From positions 45,899,885-45,963,884 of the forward strand of contig CAIIXF020000001.1 in assembly GCA_903813345.2 (NCBI GenBank): a stretch of 64,000 nucleotides of DNA, written 5' to 3'. Positions 13,801-37,710 of this stretch are shown one piece after another (position 1 is the stretch's first letter; the number at the start of each line of letters is the position of its first letter). The position numbers were made by a program, and so were the translations under genes. The stretch comes from Owenia fusiformis. Taxonomy: Eukaryota > Annelida > Polychaeta > Sabellida > Oweniidae. The notes below the pieces were generated by a model. That model searched no databases and was not told where the DNA came from. It was given only the letters and a program-made list of their open reading frames with translations.

Positions 13801-16800
13801 ATTAATTGGCACATTTTGACAATTTGTAGTTTGAATTGTGAAAATGAGAATTTTGCACCCACCTGAGAAAAAATCCTGGGGAGATCACTGAGTATAGTAC
13901 TTAATAATCAGATGTTTAGCTGATTTTTTATATAATAATAGGTAACTCTGATCACTGACCCAGTTGTTAAATTGTTGGAGTTTCCAGTCTATTTTGCAGG
14001 TCCATTGCATTATAAGCAATACAAAAGGCAAGCTGTGAGGTAGTTGGTGTGAGGCAATATTTAGTCTCTCCTCATCTAATTGAATTTGCCTCGCCTACTT
14101 TAAGATCTTGACAAAGCCCCTGAATACATAGTTACAAAAAATCATATATTGATATTGTACATCATATTATAGAAATCAGTCTCCCTTTAGTAAAGTAATT
14201 CACTCTCAAAAGTACTTCTATTCTCACCATTAACTCCATCCATTATCATTATACTATTTTGTCCATTGCTAGCATTATCTATAACATATTCCCCAATTCC
14301 AAAAGTCATCTCATCTATACCAGCATCCTCTGGATGTCTTTTAGCAATAAATGTACCATTTGTTTTCCAAGTTGCATGTGTATTATATGATCTCAAGCTT
14401 GTTTTCCTGTTGCGTGATGGAGCTGCATTGGAGTCCTTATTTGACCATTTGACAGCGCTGAGTTTACCTGTTAGAGTTTTGTCCTGACGTCCAAACATTG
14501 AGCCTCCAATACTATCTCCTGTGTATCTGCTTAATGGTCTTGAAGTACTAGAGAACTCTGATGAGATATCCATCTGGTTCACGTACGTTGGCATAGGGGT
14601 TCGATGTGGAGGTACGGGTGGTGGGGGAGGTGGAGCACGCTTGTTATGACCATGTGCTCGGAATTGTGATAATTCTTCAAAATCAGGTTCGGTTGAAATG
14701 GCCGTCACCGTGTCATCATCATTGTCTATTTCAGGTTTGGAGTTAGGAAGATAGCGATGTGGCAGATAATTAGATTTTCCAGGAGGGACAAAGTTATCTG
14801 AGGGGTTTGAAGGCTGAATTATGGGTGGGGTATTTACATAGGCAATTTGATTTCTCGAGGGAAAGGAATTCTGTGGTATGTTAACATACAGAGGTTGTTG
14901 AACTCTAGCGAATGGTACTACGTTTGGCGTGATATTGTAAAGTAATCGATCTCTTTCTCCCAAGGTGGTTGGAGCTTCACTTGATGTATTAACATAGAGT
15001 TGAGCATCTCTAGGGATACCTGATGCAGTCACTGGGGATAGCACCTCATTATTATATCTATACCCATCCATTTTCCCACCATCTACATAATCTTTGTGTT
15101 TCTTTTTCTTTCTGGGTTTCGGTATTGGAGTTGGATCATCGTCAGTCTCATTCCAGTATTTCCTTTCCAGTTGTTTTGTTTGTTTCATTCTCGTGTGTTG
15201 CTTTGCTATTCCAACCTGGCTGTTGTTGTTCATATCTGATCCCATTTGTGACTCACTTGGAGCCAGTTGTGCCCTGGGGATACCAAACTCTACAAATGTC
15301 TCTGCCATTAAAGTGGGCTTCAACTTTCTTCCCTCGAGGTACTCCTCGGTGGCTTGATCCAGGACAAAATGACACATATTTTTATCAGCACGAAAAAATG
15401 GCACTGCACCTTTATCAATCCGTTTCTTCAGTCTCGGGTTGTTGATCATTTCAATCAAACCTTTGTTCATCTTCATTCTGAAGTTTGTCCACTTGTCGAA
15501 ATATTTCTCTTTCGTGGTTGGATCTAATTTACGTGTCTTTTGAGATTGTTGATCTCTGAGCGGCATTGCCATAGATCTGTCATATCCTCTTGGAAATGAT
15601 TGAACATTATGAGTTGCTGTATTAGATGATGCCATGCTGAAATTTAAAAAAAACAATTTTACTAAAGACTATGAAATAGGAAATGTATGCAATTATAATC
15701 ACCTTTTAAATATTTGTGAGTGCATTTATTTAAGAACAACTAGTTGTGCTAAGGACTATTTTCACTACTTATGTCATACCAATTCTAATAGTTTATGTAA
15801 TATAATTTGAAGAGATAATAAGGAAAAACACTGTTCATTTGTATTTATACAATGTTATACAGTTAAACCTGTTCAAAACCTGTTAAACCTGGATGACTAC
15901 TTTGTCATAAACACCTTTGTACAAACAAGGATCAGTTAAATATTTTTCAATTGATTCACATGTTAATGGATTCTCTGTTAAGGAACCTGAACATTTTCAG
16001 CCAGTACAAAGTATGTTCCATGCAGGCAGGTTTTACTGTAGTAACAGTAATGTGTTATATAATTCAGTTTTGAATTGAAATGCATCAAATATAAATGTTT
16101 CAAACAAATAAGATATTTTTTTAAGGATAACACTATGGAAAAGCTAATGGCACAATTGCCAAAATATTGTACTAATATGTCCCATAATGTCAAACCTTTC
16201 TTTGTCTGTGTTCTATCATGAAATGTACCAGGAGTCGCTTATGTATTGAAAAATGGCCCTTTTACTTTCAACTTATAATTTGAAATCATCCTGCTCTTTT
16301 GAAATTCCACTTGGAATATGATCAAAAGTAATTATGATTTGGTTATAATTTGGCATAATATCTTGCGAGGTACACAATCTTAAAGTAATCATTGTATGTA
16401 CGATATATGATAAAACCAGTTATAAATCATGAAAAACATTAATAACACAAACATAAGTTTAAACTTGATAAGGATTTCAAGCATGTCATGACTTTTAAGA
16501 CACATTTTTTCTCATGAATGTTTTAACTTAATCTGTTCCATCAGCCATTTATATAAAACCTTCTAGAAGTTCAATATGATTTCATGTCCAGTAGTATTTA
16601 AGTTGTTTTCACTTGGATCTGAGTGGTTTGCTCAAGCTTGAAATTCTTTTTTCGTTCAGCCTAAAAATGAACCTTCCAAAAAAGGCCTCCTGTTTAGAAA
16701 ATATGGCTGAAGTTTTAAAAAAGTAATGCTCAATTTTTCCTCCGCTTTGACTTGAAAAACCCTTTGCCCATCCCCTTTTTAATTCCAAGTCGCACCTAGT

Positions 16801-19800
16801 TTGAGGCTATTTTCTGTCAGTGTCAACATGATAAGTATCAACATCATGTTGACATTTCCCTTAGCATTTTATGGTCATATATATCCCCTGGTCTATTAAA
16901 GATATGCTTGCTATTCTCCATTGCTATCACTATCAGGTCAACTTTTATGTGCATCTTTTAAACCAAATGAAATGTTCTGCTCTGTTACTTTTAAACATAC
17001 ATTTCATCTCTTTGAATGAGTGTTAAAAATATCAGGAGATACGAAAACATAAACATAGTGCAACACCCATTTTACCTCCAACTGTTAGCTATGTAACTGA
17101 AATTGATGTGTTTAACAAGGACTATTGTTGCTGATAATTTGTTCATGTAATAGTTAAAGAAAATGCATAAAGAAGGCATAATTTGAAAGAACCAAAATGA
17201 GACTACTGTATTAATAGGTAGCAGTGGCAGATCCCGAAATTAACAAGGGGGCCAACAAATTCCGCGAGTTTAATTGGGCCCCTATAACAGAAAATTGGGC
17301 CCTAATTTTGATAAATTAAGGCCCATTTTTGATATATTGGCCAAAAAAGGCCTACAAAGGCTAAATGCTCCAAAAGGCCCATTTTTTGAGGCCCTATAAA
17401 TATTTTTGGGCCCTAAAACTAAATTTTTTTTCTGGGCCCACTAAAGTATTGTGCCCCATGCCTCTCCCCCAGATCTGCCACTGTGTAGGGTAATTAATTA
17501 TAGTTACAAACAATTCTTCAAACATTCATCCTCTTTCTTTTTAACTTTCTTCTTAGAAATGTAAACAGTTGAATTTGGTTTCAGTTTTTTAAACTTAATT
17601 GTAAACAATGTTTAAACATATAATATAACTAAAAAACCTACACTCCATATTAAACAATTTGCAACAGGAAGTTCCATTTTGACTACTTGTGAAGTCTAGC
17701 TGTTAATATTTGGCAGTTGTAACAAAACCATTAACACCCCGACATTTGAACTCGGAATCCTACAAATACTCGGACTTCAGCAAACATGAGGTTTGGGCAA
17801 ATTGGGTTCAATTCTTATGCCGGGCATAAGAACAGATCTTCTCTTATGCCGGGCATAAGAACAGATCTTCTCTTATGCCGGGCATAAGAACAGATCTTCT
17901 CTTATGCCGGGCATAATAACAGATCTTCTCTTATGCCGGGCATAAGAACAGATCTTCTCTTATGTCGGGCATAAGAACAGATCTTCTGTTATGCCCGGCA
18001 TAAGAACAGATCTACTCTTATGCCCGGCATAAGAATTGAACCTAATTTGCCCAAACCTCATGTTTGCTGAAGTCCGAGTATTTGTAGGATTCCGAGTTCA
18101 AATGTCGGGGTGTTCATTGTTTAAAATGTCCATGCTATGTAATTGAGGGATAAAACCAAGATTTAAATAGATACATTTAAATAGGCAATTATATGTTGTC
18201 CAATTGGTCATTTTCATGTTTTAGAGGGAGTGTACAATGAGGATTAGTCTAATTTTGTCTTAAAAAATTTATTACATTGGCAACAATATTCATTCATGAA
18301 CAATATACAAATTAATCAAGTATTTCAGTTTTTCCTTGTAAAAAAAGAAATAGAAGCATACAGCTCGCAATTCAAAATAAAGTTTAGATTTTTAACTCAT
18401 TTTGTTGCTCAGGTAATTCTATGTAACCCTCAATTAATTGCAACTCACCCTCTGTGTCTCCTGTTTGGGTCTTCTCTGGGTAGAGAAGACAATCCTTCGG
18501 GTCTCTCTGGTGGTCTATTCCCCCACACCATCTTGTTTATGCATTAGAAGCCTCTTACTTTAAGGTTCTTTTATATCATCTCAGTTAAAGTTACTTGAAA
18601 CAAGTTTTATACAGTTAAATTGGATGTCTCATAAAAATAGCTGTTTGCCAAATAGTTTTACCTACATGGGGCTTCGCATATTGACAATTTTTTATGGTTA
18701 GTACAGTGTATAATGGCATCCTCGTTTTGTGTGTTGCGGTTGTTTCGCTTGGCCAGCCTCATGAAGTAATATATAGTAGATTTAAGCTCTATGCATTTAT
18801 CTTCTTTTATATAGAGGCTATAAATAATGAAAATAATGTGGACAGGTTATATGAAGTTTATATGAAGGTCTGGCTGGCCTGTGTACAATAAACCAAGTTA
18901 TATCATATTTGGATTCACTACAATTAAAGTTCAATGATTTGTATCAAATTAAATCCTCCTGTGTAATGTCGAAAAATAACAGTTTACATCCTGTCAAGTA
19001 ACGGATATGATCTATTATTTATTATATCAGAAATCTCATGATTTTTAGATACTTAAACTTTAAAGGCTATAGCTTTATAAACATCAACAATAAGTATTAC
19101 AGGAAGACTTAAAAATCTGTTTGTATTAACTAATTTACATTAATTATAAATTGTCTTGCTTGACAAGGTCAGCCTTTAAGATCCTTCTTAGATTTAGTTA
19201 AATTTGTTTATTTTAGAATTATCTTCTGTTGTTTTTTATGTCACCACCAAAAGTGGTGACATATTGTTATGGTCTCCGTTTTTTTGCGACGGCGGTTGGT
19301 GGTTGGCGTCCGGCGGTTGGTGGTTGGCGTCCGGCGGTTGGCGTCCGGCGTCTGTAACAATTTCTTACAACTTCCTATAACTTAACAAATACTGTTTAGA
19401 CTGACTTCAATTTTTTGTCTAAATCATCTACATGTTCTCAGAAGTTCAAATCTGACTTTAGATTTGACATTTGACCTTCAATGACCTTCTCAAGGTCAAA
19501 AAGGTCTTTTTTCAACTTGCTTCACATTGACTAAATATTTTTTCAAAATCATCTACATGTTCTCAGAAATTCAAATCTGACTTTAGATTTGACATTTGAC
19601 CTTCAAATCTGACTTTAGATTTGACATTTGACCTTCAATGACCTTCTCAAGGTCAAAAAAGGTCAAAAAGGTCTGTTTTCAACTTGCTTCAAATTGACTA
19701 AAAAAATTTTTCAAAATCATCTACGTGTTCTCAGAAATTCAAATCTGACTTAAGATTTGACTTAAGATTTGACATTTGACCTTCAATGACCTTCTCAAGG

Positions 19801-22800
19801 TCAAAAAAGGTCAAAAAGGTCTGTTTTCAACTTGCTTCAAATTGACTAAAAAAAATTTTCAAAATCATCTACGTGTTCTCAGAAATTCAAATCTGACTTT
19901 AGATTTGACTTAAGATTTGACATTTGACCTTCAATGACCTTCTCGAAGTCAAAAAAGGTCAAAAAGGTCTGTTTTCAACTTGCTTCAAATTGACTAAATT
20001 TTTTTTTTCAAAATCATCTACATGTTCTCAGAAATTCAAATCTGACTTTAGATTTGACATTTGACCTTCAATGACCTTCTCAAGGTCAAAAAAGGTCTGT
20101 TTTCAACTTGCTTCAAATTGACTAAATTTTTTTTTCAAAATCATCTACGTGTTCTCAGAAATTCAAATCTGACTTCAGATTTGACTTAAGATTTGACATT
20201 TGACCTTCAATGACCTTCTCAAGGTCAAATAAGGTCAAAAAGGTCTGTTTTCAACTTGCTTCAAATTGACTAAAAAAAAATTTCAAAATCATCTACGTGT
20301 TCTCAGAAATTCAAATCTGACTTTAGATTTGACTTAAGATTTGATATTTGACCTTCAATGACCTTCTCAAAGTCAAAAAAGGTCAAAAAGGTCTTTTTTC
20401 AACTTGCTTCAAATTGACTAAATTTTTTTTTCAAAATCATCTACATGTTCTCAGAAATTCAAATCTGACTTTAGATTTGACATTTGACCTTCAATGACCT
20501 TCTCAATGTCAAAAAAGGTCAAAAAGGTATTTTTTCATCTTGCTTCAAATTGACTAAATTTTTTTTCAAAATCATCTACATGTTCTCAGAAATTCAAATA
20601 TGACTTTAGATTTGACATTTGACCTTCTCAAGGTCAAAAAAGGTCAAAAAGGTCTTTTTTCAACTTGCTTCAAATTGACTAATTTTTTTTTTCAAAATCA
20701 TCTACATGTTCTCAGAAATTCAAATTTGACTTTACAAGTTCTCAGAAATTCAAATCTGACTTATATTAAGTTTGAACTCATAATATTGTGAGCAACTAGG
20801 TGGTGACATTTTGTCATGTTAATGCCTTGTTCCTCTATTTTGATAGTCTCCAACTTTTTTGTACCTAATGACAATCCATTACTTAAGTTCCAAATTGTCT
20901 TAAAATCGCTGGCATTGCTAGCTTACATGGGAAAAATTACAATTTAGTTGCTCAAAATTTTCAATAATTGGTGAAATCACAAAAAATTATAGCCTCATGT
21001 TAATTTTTTGTTTCAGCAATGGAAAATCATTTGAGACAGCCCTGCTTCTATCAGTATTTCTTGGAATGTTTGGAATAGATAGAATGTACCTTGGATATCC
21101 CGCTATAGGTTTGTATAGATATCTATAAGATTTATATGTTAATTTTGGCCATTGACTTTTAAATATTTCATAATTTCATCATTATTATCCTACCAAACAT
21201 AGTTTGTGAGGGATATAGAAAAACCATTCACCCTTCTGTCTATTTGTCCTGCTGATAACTCCTATAGTCACACAGATTTGGCTCAAATTTTGTAGTCTGC
21301 AGGCCTGTCAACTGTCCCGCAATTTGCGTATTTGTCACGTATTTGCTGAAGAATCTGAAGTCACGCCAGTTTTTTTTGCGTGACAGAAAATGTCACGCAA
21401 ATACGCATTTTACCTGTTAATTGTCAAGCAAAAATATTTCTGTAGAAAATTTTTCAAAATATGTTTACGATACGGTAAAAATACGAACGTCGGAAAAAAA
21501 CCGAACGCAATTTGTTTGGATTTGTCACGCGAATCCTGTATATGTCACGCATGTTAAATGCGAAAAATTTGAGGTGATCAAAGTTTGGCAAAGGTGCTCA
21601 AACTTTGGCCAAAGGTGTTTAAAAGTTGGCCAAAGGTGTTCAAAATTTGGACAAAAGTGTTCAGATTTGGACTTAGGTGTCCAACATTTGTAAGTCACTC
21701 ATATTAGGTGGTCCCAAGTTGACAGCCCTGAGTCTGATACTTCTGCTTGAGAAGTAATTTTCAAAATGGCCACTCAATTCAAAATGGCTACCATTTTTTG
21801 TAAAAAATATAGGCTTTGCTTGCTCATAAAAAATGTGCTCATATACCTGTTGTCCAATTTGTTTCAAATTGTATAGGCTGATACCTAAGGACATAGAATA
21901 TCTGTCAAAGGGAGAATTTTGAAGATGGCTGCCAAATTTAAAATGGCCGCCATATTTTGAGAAATAATGTAATTTTTCATATCATAGATATAGTTGATCA
22001 GATTTGGTCATCAAAATGGTTGTCACATTTTTAGAAGAAATGTAATTCAAGATAACTCCCTATGTTCAAAGCAACCACAAATAGCAATGAAATATAAATT
22101 GAATTAGTGAAAATGAAAAAAATCGGGTGTAAGGGAATATAAAAAATATATCTAAAATTTGGAAAGGTTGATCATTATGATTCTGGTGCCACAGTTAACC
22201 TAACCATTATGGAACATGCACAAAAATTGACTAAATCGATTTTCAAGAAATAAAGCATGTTGGAAAGAGAATTCAATCTGTTAAATGAGTACTATCTACC
22301 CAACAGAGTAATAATGATTAATCATTTTCTACAGTTTGAGAAACAATGTGACTATAAATATTCAACAATTTTCATTTTTTTGGCTTAAACTTCCGATTGT
22401 CATAACTTTGCCCCTATACCCCAAAATCACTTTGATTTTTAAGCCAAAAAAGTGCCATTTATCCGTGGCTGAAGCTAGAAAAATTATAGAGGCACAATTT
22501 GCACAAATATTCAAAATGATGAGTGTTTTGTAGGCTAAAATGTAATTTGTTTAGGATCTGCTACTTCGTTTAGTTACTGTTTTTCAAGTTTCATTCCTTG
22601 TTTATCTTTGTCTTCTGATTGGCTGTAATTTGATATATCTTACCCAGGTATGTGTGAATTCTGATTGCACTGCATGCATCAACATGCAAATCAATGTGAT
22701 TTGATTACATGTATGTTACTCTTGAGCTTCACTCCATTTTTGAACAAGTGAGACATATTTAATTGACAGTTTCAAAGCTTTTCCACTGTACATATACATG

Positions 22801-28563: not shown

Positions 28564-28805
28564 ATTTTTGGACTTCATTTTGGATTTGGATTTGGTGAGA
28601 GAGAATGCTTATTGAACAACTTATCTACAAAAGAAAATCCAAGAAGATTCCACTTTGCAAAAGTTATATGAAAATTAAAGGCTTATGTTATGTATATGCT
28701 TATCTCATGTATATTTTAATCGACAATGTTTTTATTTTAAATTTTCAGGAACAAGATACAAATTCATATAAAGCTGTTGATGACTTCAAGCCTAGAGGAT
28801 TCTAG
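28564..28805 (+). other. Possible last two coding exons of an unknown gene
   Basis: An exon-like 31-base piece (28564-28594) has AAATACAG before it and gtgaga after it. It joins in phase to 28749-28805, which follows ATTTTCAG and ends in a stop. Together they read FLDFILDLDLEQDTNSYKAV and then DDFKPRGF. I recognise no family and no upstream exon was found, so this may be coincidence. Confidence 0.2.
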
Positions 28806-28879
28806 TGGATGATTTAATCTATAAAGAGCCTTGGACAAAGCAATATGAATTTAGAAGGTACTGTACACTGCCCAGGGGG

Positions 28880-30471: not shown

Positions 30472-33400
30472 ATACTGAACACAGCGACCCGCCTGAATGG
30501 TTGAGAGTTGCTGCAAATCAATTGGGGAATAAAAAGAGAGATGTTGCAAGAGCATTGAACTTGCCCAATGCAACAATTGAGGATATAGAGCAAGACTGCC
30601 GTGGAAATGCTCAGGAATGCAGTTACAAACTTTTGGAAGCATGGTACAAGAACTGTTCTATTGATGATAAACTAAATGCCTTCAGGAGAGCCCTCTGCAA
30701 ATGTGATCTAAAAGATCTCGCAAACCGTCTTTCGCCAAGACAGAGAATGCGTATGTATTGTATATTTGAATATGTTTTTGGTCATTTTTGGTTTTAAATC
30801 CATCTAAGTTAACAATAGTTTAGAAAGAGTCTTTTGGTACTGTACCCTATGGTATTATGTTTATGAACCTCTGGAATAATTGGCAGGGGCCTAAGGTGTT
30901 CCACTTATATAGGTTTTACTGCATTCACATGTGCTGACCAAATTATGAAAAACTAGACATGGACATTAGACTACAAATAGAAGTCAATGTTTGAAAATAG
31001 TATTGGAGTTTTATTCCAATAATCATGATAGATACTGAAATAGGACAGACTTAAATGAGATCTAAAAAGTTTATATTTTATTCGAAAACTATTTTTTATA
31101 TAAAATTACAGCCTCAGTAAACGTTTAGCATAGTCAGTAAAAAATACATGTTATTTTTACCATTTTAACTCTTGATGACCCGGAGTGACGAGATATCTTG
31201 TCACCTCAAATGTGACCTTGAAACCCAGCGAGTGACCAGAAAAGCTGTCACAATTTTTTTCACTAAAATTGCTCTTATTTCAACAATTTTTTATCCAATT
31301 TACACAAAAAATGTTTTAAAATGTGTAGAAAAGATCTCTGTCATCTAATTTTACTAAAATGAGCATCATCTGTTGTATATGTATGATGTACATAGTCAAA
31401 AGCTGGCAAAAATGAAAAATTCTCTGGTTTCAACCAATTTTAGATCCTGGGATTCAAGAGGTTAAATCAACTTACTTTTCCTTACAGCATCAGGTTCCAT
31501 AAAACCCATCTCTAACATTACCCCTAATGTAAAGGACTACAAGGATACACAGGACCTGAAACGATGCATGGAGCACATGGAACAGACAAAGTTTGTGGCT
31601 CTAACAGGTAGACGTACATTTTTCTGCCAGATATACGTATCTACTTATTGTATATTGCTCTCACATATGTATGCACAGTGTACAATAAAGCCAAAAATGT
31701 TTGGATTAGCAGGTGTTCACATTCAAGGTTTTTCAGCATGTAGGTCAATGAAAGGTAACAAAGGGATTGAGAAAAAAATGTTCTTATTGAGAAGTGTTCG
31801 GATTAGAGAGGTGTTCGAATATCAGTTTCACTGTATATAATCAGTAAAACCTGCATTATTAAATACAGGGCTACAAGTGTGACAGAACATTCACATTCAA
31901 AGAAAACTAAGGCCTGTTCTGGAAAAGTCAGTATCAAAGAACAATATCTTACAATGCTCTGATAACAGCTCATTTAACATTCATGTTAAACATATAAAAC
32001 ACATTTAGATGGATTAGAAAGGTGTTTTGATATACAGGTTTAAGGTTTTACTCTATTTTCATATTTTTATGTCAGGTCTGTCTGTATTATAATGAAGCCA
32101 AATTGTCATTTACATACAGTAGAACCTGTATATCTAAACACCTGGCTAATCCGAACACTTCCCAATCTGAACTTTTTTTCGGTCCCATTTTTTCCTCCCA
32201 TTGACTCCCATGTTAAAAAACCTTGAAATGTGAACACCTCCCAATTTGAATAGTGAACAGTCATATTTGAAAAATTCACCTGTCTAATCTGAACACTTTT
32301 CATAAAATTTCTGATGTTTTATACAAAATTGCTCAAATTTTGTCATGATATCAAAACTTTGGGAAATAATCTTGAATGGTCTCATTCATAATGGGCCTTT
32401 CGTCTCATTCATAATGGGCCTTTCCAGCATGATTAGATTCATTTGGATCAAATTTTCAAATTTCTGGAATGCCATAAAGTTATGTGGTTAAAAGAACTAT
32501 AAATATTTACCAAGAATGTGTTCAAATTTCTTCAGAATCCGGATTATTACGGATGCAAAAACCTCGAAATGTGAACACCTCCTAATCTGAATGCTTTTAT
32601 CTGGTCCCAATGGCGTTCGGATTAGACAGGTTTTACTGTATATGGTAAATTTTCTTCAAAACTTTGGTGGTTTGCTAATTCATGTAATTCTGTTCTAGAT
32701 ATAGTTCATCAGTTTAAATATTTATGTAAAAAATGAATATTTTGAAGAGCATATCAACTTAAAATCACCAAATTGAATAAGTAGCTGACAATATTCTAAT
32801 AAGGTTAAGTCTACCAAATTGAAATTAAATAGCTCTTAGTCAGTCCACATTTTAGTAGCCCTATATTATTGCATGATTTTGTTTTTGAATGAGTGATTTT
32901 ATAATCTGAATTGTATTTCCAGGTTTAAGTGGAAGTGGAAAAACAGAAATAGCTAAAGCTTATTGGAATAGGAAAAAAGACCTGTATGACGTTGGCTGGT
33001 TAATTCCTAGTGAATCAGACCAAGAATTACGGAACTCGCTTCTGTTATTTCAAGAACGTTTGAAATCATTCACTGTTGATCCAAACCAGGATCTACCGGA
33101 CATGTTATCGCAGGTCAATTCAGAGATCAAACGTGATGCTAATAGAAAGTTTTTATTGATCTTTGATGATGTTACAGACTCTACTCAATATGTGATCCAA
33201 CAAGGCTTTCCACCTTCTGAGAACATCTCTGTTATCATAACGACTCAAACGTCACATCCGTATGCCATCAAGGAATCCATACAACCAATTAATGGCTTCA
33301 CTGAGGATGAGGTATTGCAGTTTCTGGAAGAACTCCAAGATAGAAGAGAGATGAAGATAAAATTATGGGAGGAGATGAGTCACCTTCCTAGTGCCCTAGC

Positions 33401-36400
33401 CTGTGCCAAATTCGACATCAATAAACTGAAAAGGGACATTGATCATTATCTTAAAGGCATCAAGCATAAGCAGGTCAATATAATTAAATATTTATAATTC
33501 AATGTTATATTCATGTTTTTTTATTGTACCTAAAAAGGTATGATAATGTCATCAGCTTTGGGGGCGTTGGCAGCATCTTTACTTTCTTGTCATCATGATT
33601 CCAGGAAAACCACTGAACGGAATTGCTTCAAATTTTTAAACCTGTTACAGGGTAAGAAGTTCTAGAGCTAAATAACTTTTCGGTGGCCACCTTGATTTCT
33701 GGTGGTCAATTTGGAAGATTTTAGATAAATATTCAGTTGTCTTCACAATTTCAAGGAAAACCGCTTAACGAAACCACTTCAAATTTTTACACATGTTACA
33801 TGGTAAGAAGTTAACTTTTCAGTTGCCATCTTGCTTTTTGGTGGCCATTTTGGAAGTTTTTCGATAAATATTGTCATCACGATTACAAGTAAACCACTTG
33901 ATGGATTTACTTCAATTTTTTACACATGTTACATGGTAAGTTCTATGCTTGATTAACTTTTCAGAGGCCATCTTGCTTTAGGTACAATATTGTTTACCCT
34001 GTGCCTTGTTCCACTCCAGCATTCTTTTACTTTATAACAGTGAGCTCTTACATTGAAATAAGTGAGCTGGTCCCAAATGAGTGAATGAAAATATTCGTTC
34101 ACCCTCCTGAAAATTTGAATTGAGAACTTCGCAACAACATCCAAGGGAGAAAACTACATTGTATTCAAATGAAGCATTGTCTTTCATATTTCTGCTGGAT
34201 GTTCTAGCATGGACATTTTGAAATGAGGAATCTTTTGAAAGTTGCCCAAAATAATTTGGTGAGATACTAACTTACTAGAATGATGAATACAAATTATAAC
34301 AAAAAAACAATATTTTGCAATGGTTGAATGTTGTTTATTTTACAAATATTTTAAATCAAAAAGTTTTGATCTCACGATATTCATGGTTACAAAATGTCTG
34401 GTAAATGTAAATATACACTAAAATCTCAACTTTACTTCTGTTTGGTTCATTGTAGGTGTATCGAATGATGGAAAGAAGAGACAGAGGCATACTTGGTAAC
34501 AGCTATAAGAAAACACCTATTGAAGCCCATGTCCAGAATGTTCGAACAATGTTAGATGAACTGAAAGCTGATGGTTTGCCCAAACTCTGTATGGTATTCA
34601 AAGCGATGGCATTCTTTGACTCTAAAGCCATACCTGTCTTCATCTTGGAGGATATATTGAGGCTCGTTGATCCCGATGCAGATATGCCAGTTGAAAGTAT
34701 GATAGATGAACTTCTTAACAAGATGATAAATCGTTCCTATGTGACCATATTCCTTGAGGATGGTGATATGAAACATCGCTTAGTGGACACCCATGATCTA
34801 GTACAGCTTGCAACACGCTTCGAAGTTCAAGAGACATCAGACCACCTAAAGTCCCTTGAGATCTTGATGAGAGTCCTACTATGCTACTTCGCCAAGGATA
34901 CAAGATATATGTCATACTTCAAGATTAACACACTGCTGATGCCTCACGTGGAAATGGTGTTGGAGCATGTGCACAAGCTGGACCTTTCATTCGAGATGAA
35001 AATAATGGAGATTGCAATGTTCGACATACTGGGATATTCACACACTCAAAGTGGGTCAAGAGAGGTAGCAGAACAGAAGTTACAGACTGGTGTGGATCTG
35101 GTCTATAAGTCTCTGAACATGGAGGAGGCAGATGTGGATAGAGACATCTCAATCAAATTGAGACGTAGAAGTACAGGCATGCAATCAGAGATGCGGGTGG
35201 ACGACAACCAAGTGACAGACCCAGATGAATTTGCTCATGAAAAGGCATTATTCATGTACGAGAAACTTGAAACTGTATGTGATAGAGTTAGTAACAAATT
35301 TGTGGCCAATACAGTCTTAAATGCAGATGATGTCGCTCAGATGAAACAGAAAATTTCGAAAGATAAGAAATTCCCAAAGCTTCTATCACAGGACAGAATT
35401 GATAGGAAAATCTATGATGAACTCGTGCAGTTGGGGTGTTGCGTACCAGAAGAAAAGATCAAGAGTATCTACCTTCCAGAGCTCTATGCATCAGTATTCT
35501 ACACATATGGGCGTATGTACTTCTACAACAAGGATAAATACCAGAGAAATACAATGAATACCAACATGCTGATATCTGCAATACGTCTCTCTTCAGCCTT
35601 ATGCAAGGTCATTGAGGAAAAAACTGGAGTTGTAGTGTTCCATAGCATTCTTACTAAGCGCAATGCTCTCTTCTACCTGTTATCAGAAAACAAAAATGAA
35701 ATGGGCAAAGAAAAATCTTCTGAGGAAATGCTGAGAAATTTGTATCAGGGCCAAAGGGAATATGAAAATCTTAGTAAACTTACAGATAACAATGACTGGT
35801 ACCAGCATGGCATCCTGAAAGTCACTAAGAATGACCGACACCATAAGTGTGTGTGCACAGAAAAGGTTGTTTTCATAAGTACTCGTATTTTGAAAATGGA
35901 GAAAGATCCCACTAAAAGGGAAGAGGTTATAAAGAAAGGTCTCGGAAAGATCAAGATTTTACAAGATGAAGTGGACCTTCAAGAGCAGGGTTCTGGGCCA
36001 GGACGTACACTTCACAGAGGATCTGACTTCTATGTCGTGAGTGCCGAGTTTTATGAAGCAGCTGGTGAAAAGTATATGCAGGAGGCACATGATAATTACA
36101 AGAAAGCCACTGGGAGGTTTAAGGTATTTTTTGTATTTCATATTTTTCAATTTATTTTAAGATTTTGTACATGGTAAGTATTTACACTGACATGAAAGAG
36201 ACACCCCAGTCATGGGATGTATAGGTTCCATGTTATGAAATCTAAAATATCATATACATAAAGTTTGAACAGTTGGATTAAATGAAAACAAATAACAAAG
36301 CATGAAAATTATGATAATTGGAGTGGTGAGAAGCATAGCTTTAGTCATAATAGACCTAATTTTGCCAAAGCAAATCAAACTTAAACTTTTTTCATAGACG

Positions 36401-37131
36401 TTTGTTAGATGTTTGTTTGGTAACTGATTATTTGTTTGTTGTTAACGGATCTTTCTAGCATGGTGCACCATAGCATATGATTTTTGTAACAATGATTTCA
36501 TTTCTGATGAACCCAATGAAGTACATGTAGTATGTGCCCAAGCCCAAAGCTAAAGTCAAGCCAAGACTTCATTTTGAGCAATGCATATATCTATCAGTAG
36601 AAGATATTCAACCCTCCCCATTTCTTTATAACTCATATCAATATTAGTGGAAATAAAAGTTGTCATTCCTGGAAGTCTGGTTGCAAATAACTACTTTATT
36701 CATGCCCTGAAGACTTGATCAATATCTCCTTTCCTTTGATCTTATCTACACAAATATAGAATTGTCCATCATCAGTAATGGCTGACTCATATTAGAACTC
36801 TATTTTTGTTCATGTTGCAGGAATTTAAAATTGGAGAATATTTAAGAAAACTATGCAGTTCAAATGTATTCATATTGCTCTATGCTGATTATAGGCCACA
36901 AACTGTAGCCAGTGGAAGAAATATGGGAAGGCATGCGAAGGCCAAATGAGAACAGCAAAAGCTCTGAATATGAAGGATGTCCTGAAAAAGGCGAAAGAAG
37001 AGGGTGACACTTACAATCTTAAAGCTCCGGCAGATGCACCATACAAACAAAACATTAGTACTCTAACTGCTGAACTTGAAGCGCAAATGAAATCACTGAG
37101 TATAGACTCTAGCGAACTTGACATGGAGTGA
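30472..37131 (+). CDS. Death-domain NB-ARC STAND protein (APAF-1/NLR-like)
   Basis: Five exons join in phase: 30472-30750, 31488-31607, 32923-33473, 34456-36123 and 36895-37131 (stop). They encode about 950 residues. The first encodes a Death domain (WLRVAANQLGNKKRDVARAL to LKDLANRLSP). The third carries the NB-ARC ATPase: Walker A GLSGSGKTE at the exon start, Walker B KFLLIFDD near 33155, sensor region VIITTQT at 33231, and GxP-like HLPSAL near 33385. Exon four begins with a winged-helix-like region (LCMVFKAMAFFDSKAIPVFI) that ends in an MHD-like VDTHDLVQLATR. A long alpha-helical tail follows, perhaps TPR-like, with KKLSKD-type basic stretches. No WD40 or LRR repeats are seen. By family this is a nucleotide-switched oligomerising platform in cell death or innate immunity. 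The 5' end is missing, because the Death-domain exon needs one base from an unseen exon. Confidence 0.85.
31676..31838. repeat. Tigger/pogo-like fragment
   Basis: CACAGTGTACAATAAAGCC opens it, and GTGTTCGGATTAGAGAGGTG with TTTCACTGTA closes it. It shares GGATTAG and GTGTTCACATTCAAGG-type words with the fuller copy at 32117-32638. It lies in an intron of the STAND gene. Confidence 0.5.
32117..32638. mobile_element. Tigger/pogo-like non-autonomous DNA transposon
   Basis: The left end is CAGTAGAACCTGTATATCTA and the right end is GATTAGACAGGTTTTACTG, each flanked by TA. CCTAATCTGAA/GTTCGGATTAG words occur through the element. The ends fit the pogo/Tigger pattern (CAGT...AACCTG), and the 522 bases have no transposase frame. 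A more decayed relative lies at about 31845-32050. Confidence 0.7.
33570..33985 (+). repeat. Three-unit imperfect tandem repeat in the NB-ARC/winged-helix intron
   Basis: Units near 33678, 33813 and 33957 share TTAACTTTTCAG, GCCATCTTGCTTT and GGTGGCCATTTTGGAAG. The linking words are ACACATGTTACATGGTAAG and GATAAATATT. Periods are about 135 and 144 bases. Confidence 0.6.
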
Positions 37132-37298: not shown

Positions 37299-37710
37299 TT
37301 AAGGTACAGCTGGAAAGTAACATTTTGGTAAAAAATTGCTATACCTGCACATGTTATTTTCTGGTACTAAATAAAGTATGAAGGCATGTGTCAATTTCCT
37401 TGCTTTTTTCAGGAAAGTATCATTACATTGTCTTCTTTTAGAATATCTGGTAGGAGTTCAATGGGAACTCCAGGAAATTCTGATATTTCACACTTTCTAT
37501 TTTTCCAAATTTTCTTTCAAAGTGTCCAGACAACACAGAAGCTTCCATTGAACTGTTTCCAGATATTCTAAAAGTAAACAGTGTAATGATACTTTCCTGA
37601 AAAAAGCAAGGAAATACACACATGCCTTCATACTTAATTTTGTACCAGAAAATAACATGTGCAGGTATAGCAATTTTTTACCAAAATGTTACTTTCCAGC
37701 TGAACCTTAA
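37299..37710. repeat. TTAA-type fold-back element, copy 2
   Basis: The element is bounded by TTAA at 37299-37302 and 37707-37710, with ends GGTACAGCTGGAAAGTAACA and its mirror. It matches the copy at 27164-27570 almost base for base across some 400 bases. TTAA flanks are the target signature of piggyBac-type elements. Confidence 0.8.

Follow-up and report, generated by a model that had tools for sequence, protein, structure and literature searches.

Death domains in place of CARDs in front of an NB-ARC ATPase were reported in 2007 for CED-4/APAF-1 homologues of amphioxus and sea urchin, in which the WD40 repeats are occasionally absent or replaced by TPR (PMC2246300). The placozoan NB-ARC/NACHT proteins covered in one report combine WD40 or TPR with CARD, Death-like or (twice) Death domains (PMC6321704), and TPR-type NACHT/NB-ARC proteins have been described from Hydra (PMC7642931). 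As described in these two reports, the Hydra and placozoan proteins have TPR or WD40 and death-fold N termini and no LRR (PMC7642931, PMC6321704). Corals couple Death, DED or CARD with TPR, WD40, LRR or ankyrin and show lineage-specific expansions of their NACHT/NB-ARC genes (PMC4083563), while a TIR-NB-ARC-WD40 architecture was described from amphioxus (PMC2575513). APAF-1-like proteins which bind DNA, one of them with an undefined C-terminal part, have also been described (PMC11747288), as have bacterial AP-ATPases fused to TPR (PMC8195603).

The general design of the protein described below is thus already known from other invertebrates, which leaves the family to which the tail belongs and the change in sensor 1 to be explained. 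To our knowledge, invertebrate Death-NB-ARC proteins are mostly without an assigned trigger or output. We analysed a stretch of 64,000 nucleotides from the annelid Owenia fusiformis (contig CAIIXF020000001.1, positions 45,899,885 to 45,963,884), in the following called the window. It holds a genuine animal gene, predicted from its sequence to encode a switch of the cell-death or immunity type that consists of a Death domain, an NB-ARC motor and a long helical tail. As the tail, which belongs to no named family, and the modified nucleotide pocket are common to 13 genes, these would form a set of paralogs in which sensing and signalling without WD40 or LRR repeats can be tested. The features of the window gene are as follows.

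28749..28857, + strand: candidate 5' exon with 5' UTR and ATG at 28845 (MNLE), from AG acceptor, GT donor and frame
30472..30750, + strand: Death domain exon, PF00531 above cut-off, family profile of this exon matching the PDB
31488..31607, + strand: linker exon leading into the presumed first NB-ARC strand (ITPNV...KFVALTG), with counterparts next to 8 of the 12 close paralogs
32923..33473, + strand: NB-ARC core exon with Walker A at its start, from Pfam, PDB profile and alignment motifs
33153-33173, + strand: Walker B LLIFDDV, in the NB-ARC core exon
33231-33251, + strand: sensor-1 segment VIITTQT, in the NB-ARC core exon
33474..34455, + strand: intron with a dispersed tandem repeat, missing in the 15 aligned paralogs
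34456..36123, + strand: large exon with putative winged-helix region, MHD-like motif and then the tail from about 34852, from the family alignment
34783-34812, + strand: MHD-like VDTHDLVQLA, in the large exon
35029..35100, + strand: TPR-like motif 1 (LGYSHTQSGSREVAEQKLQTGVDL), aligned to a TPR profile by hhalign with a score of 24.5 and a probability of 7.0%
35482..35856, + strand: family-specific conserved tail stretch (YGRMYFY, LTKRNALFY, GILK..HxxxC), from the family alignment
36052..36114, + strand: TPR-like motif 2, at the large exon's end, with an hhalign score of 21.4 and a probability of 2.7%
36895..37131, + strand: last coding exon with stop, with counterparts next to 5 of the 12 close paralogs

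The original prediction had joined five exons between 30472 and 37131 in phase, and this join holds, with AG/GT borders and compatible phases throughout and a TGA stop at 37129-37131. Once the candidate first exon is added, the predicted protein has 955 amino acids. Judged by splice signals and frame alone, 28749-28857 is the probable 5' exon; two in-frame stops precede its ATG, and it ends one base into a codon of which the Death exon supplies the remainder.

With the large exon as query we obtained 25 matches in the genome at E up to 0.001. Fifteen rows at E 3.7e-40 or better make up the close family, which amounts to 13 genes including that of the window because two genes occupy two rows each, and the remaining ten rows belong to a more distant group. 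Several family members are clustered on C2, C10 and C12. We aligned the window gene with 12 close and three distant paralogs, and in all 15 of these paralogs Walker A and the tail are read in a single frame, which in L011 is ended by an internal TGA. L011 itself (C12:31742900-31746500) is a close copy of L009 with this one internal TGA and is possibly decayed. All 15 also read through the site of the intron at 33474-34455, which is therefore peculiar to the window gene among the aligned members; this join of exons 3 and 4 is the one at which exact exon borders were checked in paralogs. Within the intron a tandem unit of 139 bp occurs twice (33673-33940), and a genome search in which 40 of 910 candidates were scored gave at least 144 matches to it.

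Every one of the five exons has counterparts beside paralogs elsewhere in the genome, and the exons are for this reason real beyond chance. A Death exon is found upstream and on the same strand in 9 of the 12 close paralogs, the one on C6 having two. Its distance to the matched tail exon is about 16-21 kb in three of the nine (C369, C12:31744736 and C10:18734165) and about 10 kb at C10:18814104, so that an intervening gene is possible in these four. When the roughly 9 kb preceding L002, L003 and L004 were searched with a profile, no Death exon was detected at E up to 1, and these three genes may thus be without one, begin with a different N terminus or contain a longer intron. In the distant subfamily, the matches listed within 100 kb include neither Death nor CARD at E up to 0.001, and by eye we noticed no Death domain in the + strand open reading frames 6 kb upstream of L020. 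The linker exon lies beside eight close paralogs; at three of the other four (L011, L013 and L014) the search covered a short stretch before the NB-ARC exon. For the last exon one of the five matches has an E of 1.9e-10, and the other four (0.006-0.06) are supported by their position.

The predicted Death domain passes the curated Pfam cut-off on the joined protein (PF00531, E 2.1e-6, 28.2 bits against 22.6). We built a profile from 10 Death exons of nine genes, namely the window gene and 8 of the 9 Death-bearing paralogs (C369 left out), and it matched RIPK1 (5.4e-14), PIDD (8.1e-12) and FADD (about 1e-11) in the PDB. The single-sequence model of the window's own Death exon shows six helices at a pLDDT of 62.6. 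Its first Foldseek matches are Death domains, the best at E 0.021 and none below 0.001. VIA aligned the model with ankyrin-B (Z 8.9, rmsd 2.3, 69 residues), a score in a range that is common for helical bundles, and with FADD (Z 8.4, rmsd 3.1, 75 residues), CARDs reaching 5.5. As the model is a helical bundle, its structural resemblance to Death domains is suggestive only.

The NB-ARC domain is likewise above its Pfam cut-off on the joined protein (PF00931, E 1.3e-7, 31.6 bits against 23.5), and of the three kinds of profile that the original prediction had proposed for a search, NB-ARC and Death were thus recovered and TPR was not, no TPR family matching the protein at E up to 1. From Walker A onward, without the linker exon, the NB-ARC score drops to 20.7 bits and below the cut-off, and without this exon 7 of the 16 family members match at E up to 1. 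A genome search with PF00931 listed nine matches, four of them in this family and the window gene not among them. Walker A GLSGSGKTE, Walker B LLIFDD and the MHD-like THDLV, all named in the original prediction, were located in the joined exons, and together with the two Pfam domains they support its reading as a Death-NB-ARC STAND switch. In the alignment the Walker A pattern GxxGxGKT is kept in 16 of 16 members, the first Walker B aspartate in 15 (Glu in L013) and the MHD-like His also in 15 (Gln in L016). In sensor 1 of APAF-1 and plant NLRs two threonines are normally followed by an arginine (TTR). This arginine is found in none of the 16 members, which have Q, E, N or other residues there, so that their nucleotide cycle may differ; TTR with the arginine is present in L025 and L026, two NB-ARC genes of the same genome.

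A single-sequence PDB search with the window protein gave nothing below E 0.001 (best NRC1, 0.043). Using the profile of the window protein and 15 paralogs, the NB-ARC part matched NRC1 at 1.7e-8 and other plant NLRs too, CED-4 being marginal at 0.67. The strongest match of the NOD is the bacterial NB-ARC-TPR model NF040586 (NCBIfam FxSxx_TPR), which covers residues 120-469 at E 6.8e-28 with 97.6 bits, under the equivalog cut-off of 300. All eight other family members scanned match it as well (E 4e-26 to 2.1e-7), and with the exon-4 fragment alone NCBIfam gave no match at E up to 0.1. The earlier label "APAF-1/NLR-like" is fair as an analogy; the bacterial model is the strongest match in a comparison that had full-length animal NB-ARC models outside its scope, and either group may be the nearer one. 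Between the window protein and the TPR protein of the bacterial FxSxx-COOH system there is homology that begins with NB-ARC and reaches the beginning of the tail, into which the match extends no further. The presumed winged-helix region lies within this aligned stretch; DUF7779, which may represent the wing, is weak in 3 of the 16 members and missing from the row of the window gene. For L025 and L026 the match to this model is far stronger (2.8e-56 and 2.7e-56), which suggests that the window family is a divergent branch of the NOD class in question. L025 (C4:22722000-22727500) encodes a large single-frame protein with Pfam matches to NB-ARC, DUF7779, TPR, a right-handed beta helix and a MYND finger, and L026 (C10:33499500-33504500) a large single-frame protein that is similar to it by NCBIfam and by eye. 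Among prokaryote genome contigs the family alignment gave 590 pattern matches of which none was confirmed, and a tblastn search of plasmids with the residues from linker to early tail found five records (best E 6e-14); in three of these the matched region carries the annotation of a TPR or NB-ARC protein.

The original prediction had given the tail some 450 helical residues without WD40 or LRR repeats. A long tail does follow the MHD-like motif, its length being about 500 residues from 34852. On the joined protein Pfam gave no tail family above cut-off, and neither WD40, LRR nor NACHT at E up to 1, in agreement with the predicted absence of the first two. When the 16-sequence profile was compared with the PDB, the 12 distinct sequences found at E up to 1 all matched best in the NB-ARC part (profile positions 1-193). 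The large exon alone, folded without an alignment, reached a mean pLDDT of 34.4, and with so poor a model the winged helix and the helical tail are read from sequence only.

Weak similarity suggests that the ends of the tail may carry TPR-like motifs. Their hhalign scores of 24.5 and 21.4 were obtained with a TPR template of 16 double repeats and exceed the controls, in which the reversed tail reached 13.1 and the highest-scoring of 50 column shuffles 16.5. With a one-repeat TPR template there was no separation, the tail scoring 18.7 against 18.6 for one of 10 shuffles. Tail profiles contained 15 of the 16 rows (L011 left out), and columns filled in less than half of the rows were removed. At the position of motif 1 the paralog L008 has a TPR_12 match (E 0.0038) and at that of motif 2 L002 and L003 have weak TPR matches, all under cut-off. 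TPR_12 is common in this genome, with at least 111 matches (113 of 1218 candidates scored), and L027-L029 are TPR-repeat frames that follow a stretch which may be nucleotidyltransferase-like. Between the two ends the motifs YGRMYFY, RNxxxY and GxLK..HxxxC are conserved in close and distant subfamilies, and this middle part would be a degenerate helical repeat. In L022, from the distant subfamily, the tail-type frame continues into what appears by eye to be a retroelement endonuclease and reverse transcriptase. In comparison to the Hydra and placozoan types as they are described, TPR in the window protein is faint and located at the two ends of the tail only (PMC7642931, PMC6321704). We did not find this tail described in the literature searched, which was covered in part and had eukaryote protein databases outside its scope, and the family may be named elsewhere.

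Taking these data together, we favour, as reasonably probable, a cytosolic Death-NB-ARC-(TPR-like) STAND switch that would act as a putative ligand-gated oligomer and cluster its Death domains for signalling. The tail and the winged helix would keep the NB-ARC closed until a ligand or partner protein binds to the tail and opens it, followed by nucleotide exchange and formation of a ring. The clustered Death domains might then nucleate a complex with an adaptor or kinase that also has a Death domain (FADD-, RIPK- or PIDD/RAIDD-like), which could lead to caspase or NF-kB-type signalling. As claimed earlier, Death-NB-ARC proteins occur in several invertebrates, with amphioxus and sea urchin as examples in the source cited (PMC2246300). 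There Death takes the place of CARD before NB-ARC as in the window gene, a likeness drawn from the description and not from sequence (PMC2246300).

More tentatively, and with perhaps one chance among several, the family might represent a distinct, lineage-expanded class of Death-domain STAND proteins. Its members would have a tail domain of their own (about 400 residues with the YGRMYFY / RNxxxY / GxLK..HxxxC core) and a nucleotide pocket able to function with no arginine in sensor 1, and their opening would be set by the tail rather than by APAF-1-like sensing of the gamma-phosphate.

An APAF-1 orthologue was ruled out, as the joined protein shows neither CARD, APAF1_C nor WD40 in Pfam at E up to 1 and a separate APAF1_C-WD40 gene is present elsewhere. 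This gene (C5, locus L030) is a STAND relative of APAF-1 as judged by its APAF1_C-WD40 part alone, and it differs from the window gene in having these two domains. The same findings make it unlikely that the protein is part of an APAF-1-like apoptosome, in which Death would replace CARD and a mitochondrial signal would lead to activation of an initiator caspase. The NB-ARC family and the grouping of Death-NB-ARC proteins with CED-4/APAF-1 homologues in the cited source (PMC2246300) would fit such a role, but all three apoptosome domains are missing, the C5 gene has two of them, and CED-4 is a marginal match to the family profile.

A similarly small chance is given to a nucleic-acid sensor, whose NB-ARC and tail would bind DNA by analogy to the lancelet protein BbeApaf-J. 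According to its description, this two-CARD protein with an undefined C-terminal region binds dsDNA via its NB-ARC and C-terminal parts (PMC11747288); however, it carries CARDs, and its likeness to the window protein is one of description (PMC11747288).

Besides the preferred signalling switch, the selection data bear on whether the copies are working genes. We calculated dN/dS for 12 pairs, of which eight were saturated at synonymous sites; among these are all six pairs with the window gene, for which there is therefore no value. The other four gave 0.11 (L009/L011), 0.15 (L008/L014), 0.15 (L004/L005) and 0.21 (L003/L006), which speaks for working genes. For tail and NB part separately, dN/dS was 0.12 and 0.06 in L009/L011, 0.18 and 0.18 in L008/L014, and 0.16 and 0.10 in L004/L005. 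The tail, in which the original prediction had placed the putative sensor, is thus constrained; its value equals that of the NB part in one pair, and in the two others, where constraint is less tight, it is about 1.6 to 2 times as high. Its dN/dS shows no sign of a fast-changing sensor, four pairs being few. Such values (0.11-0.21 in four pairs, 0.12-0.18 for the tail in three) would suit a housekeeping scaffold or regulator with old and conserved copies instead of an immune sensor, but the 13 close members and their clusters on C2, C10 and C12 resemble the expansions of coral NACHT/NB-ARC genes as reported (PMC4083563), and we regard this role as improbable too. That the gene is a decayed copy or that its exons are joined by chance, for which one could cite the repeats within introns, has a negligible probability in view of 955 codons without stop or frame shift and of exons matched beside paralogs.

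Apart from the gene, the window contains two open frames on the - strand, one at 14187-15668 (493 amino acids, unmatched by Pfam at E up to 0.001) and one at 1094-1648 with a weak L27_2 match under cut-off. The stretch at 19395-20761 is repeated, with many translated matches, and recurs upstream of the paralog L002 (locus L032). Directly downstream of the gene lies an inverted repeat (37299-37469 / 37540-37710), the 171-nt arms of which are 92% complementary and 70 nt apart.
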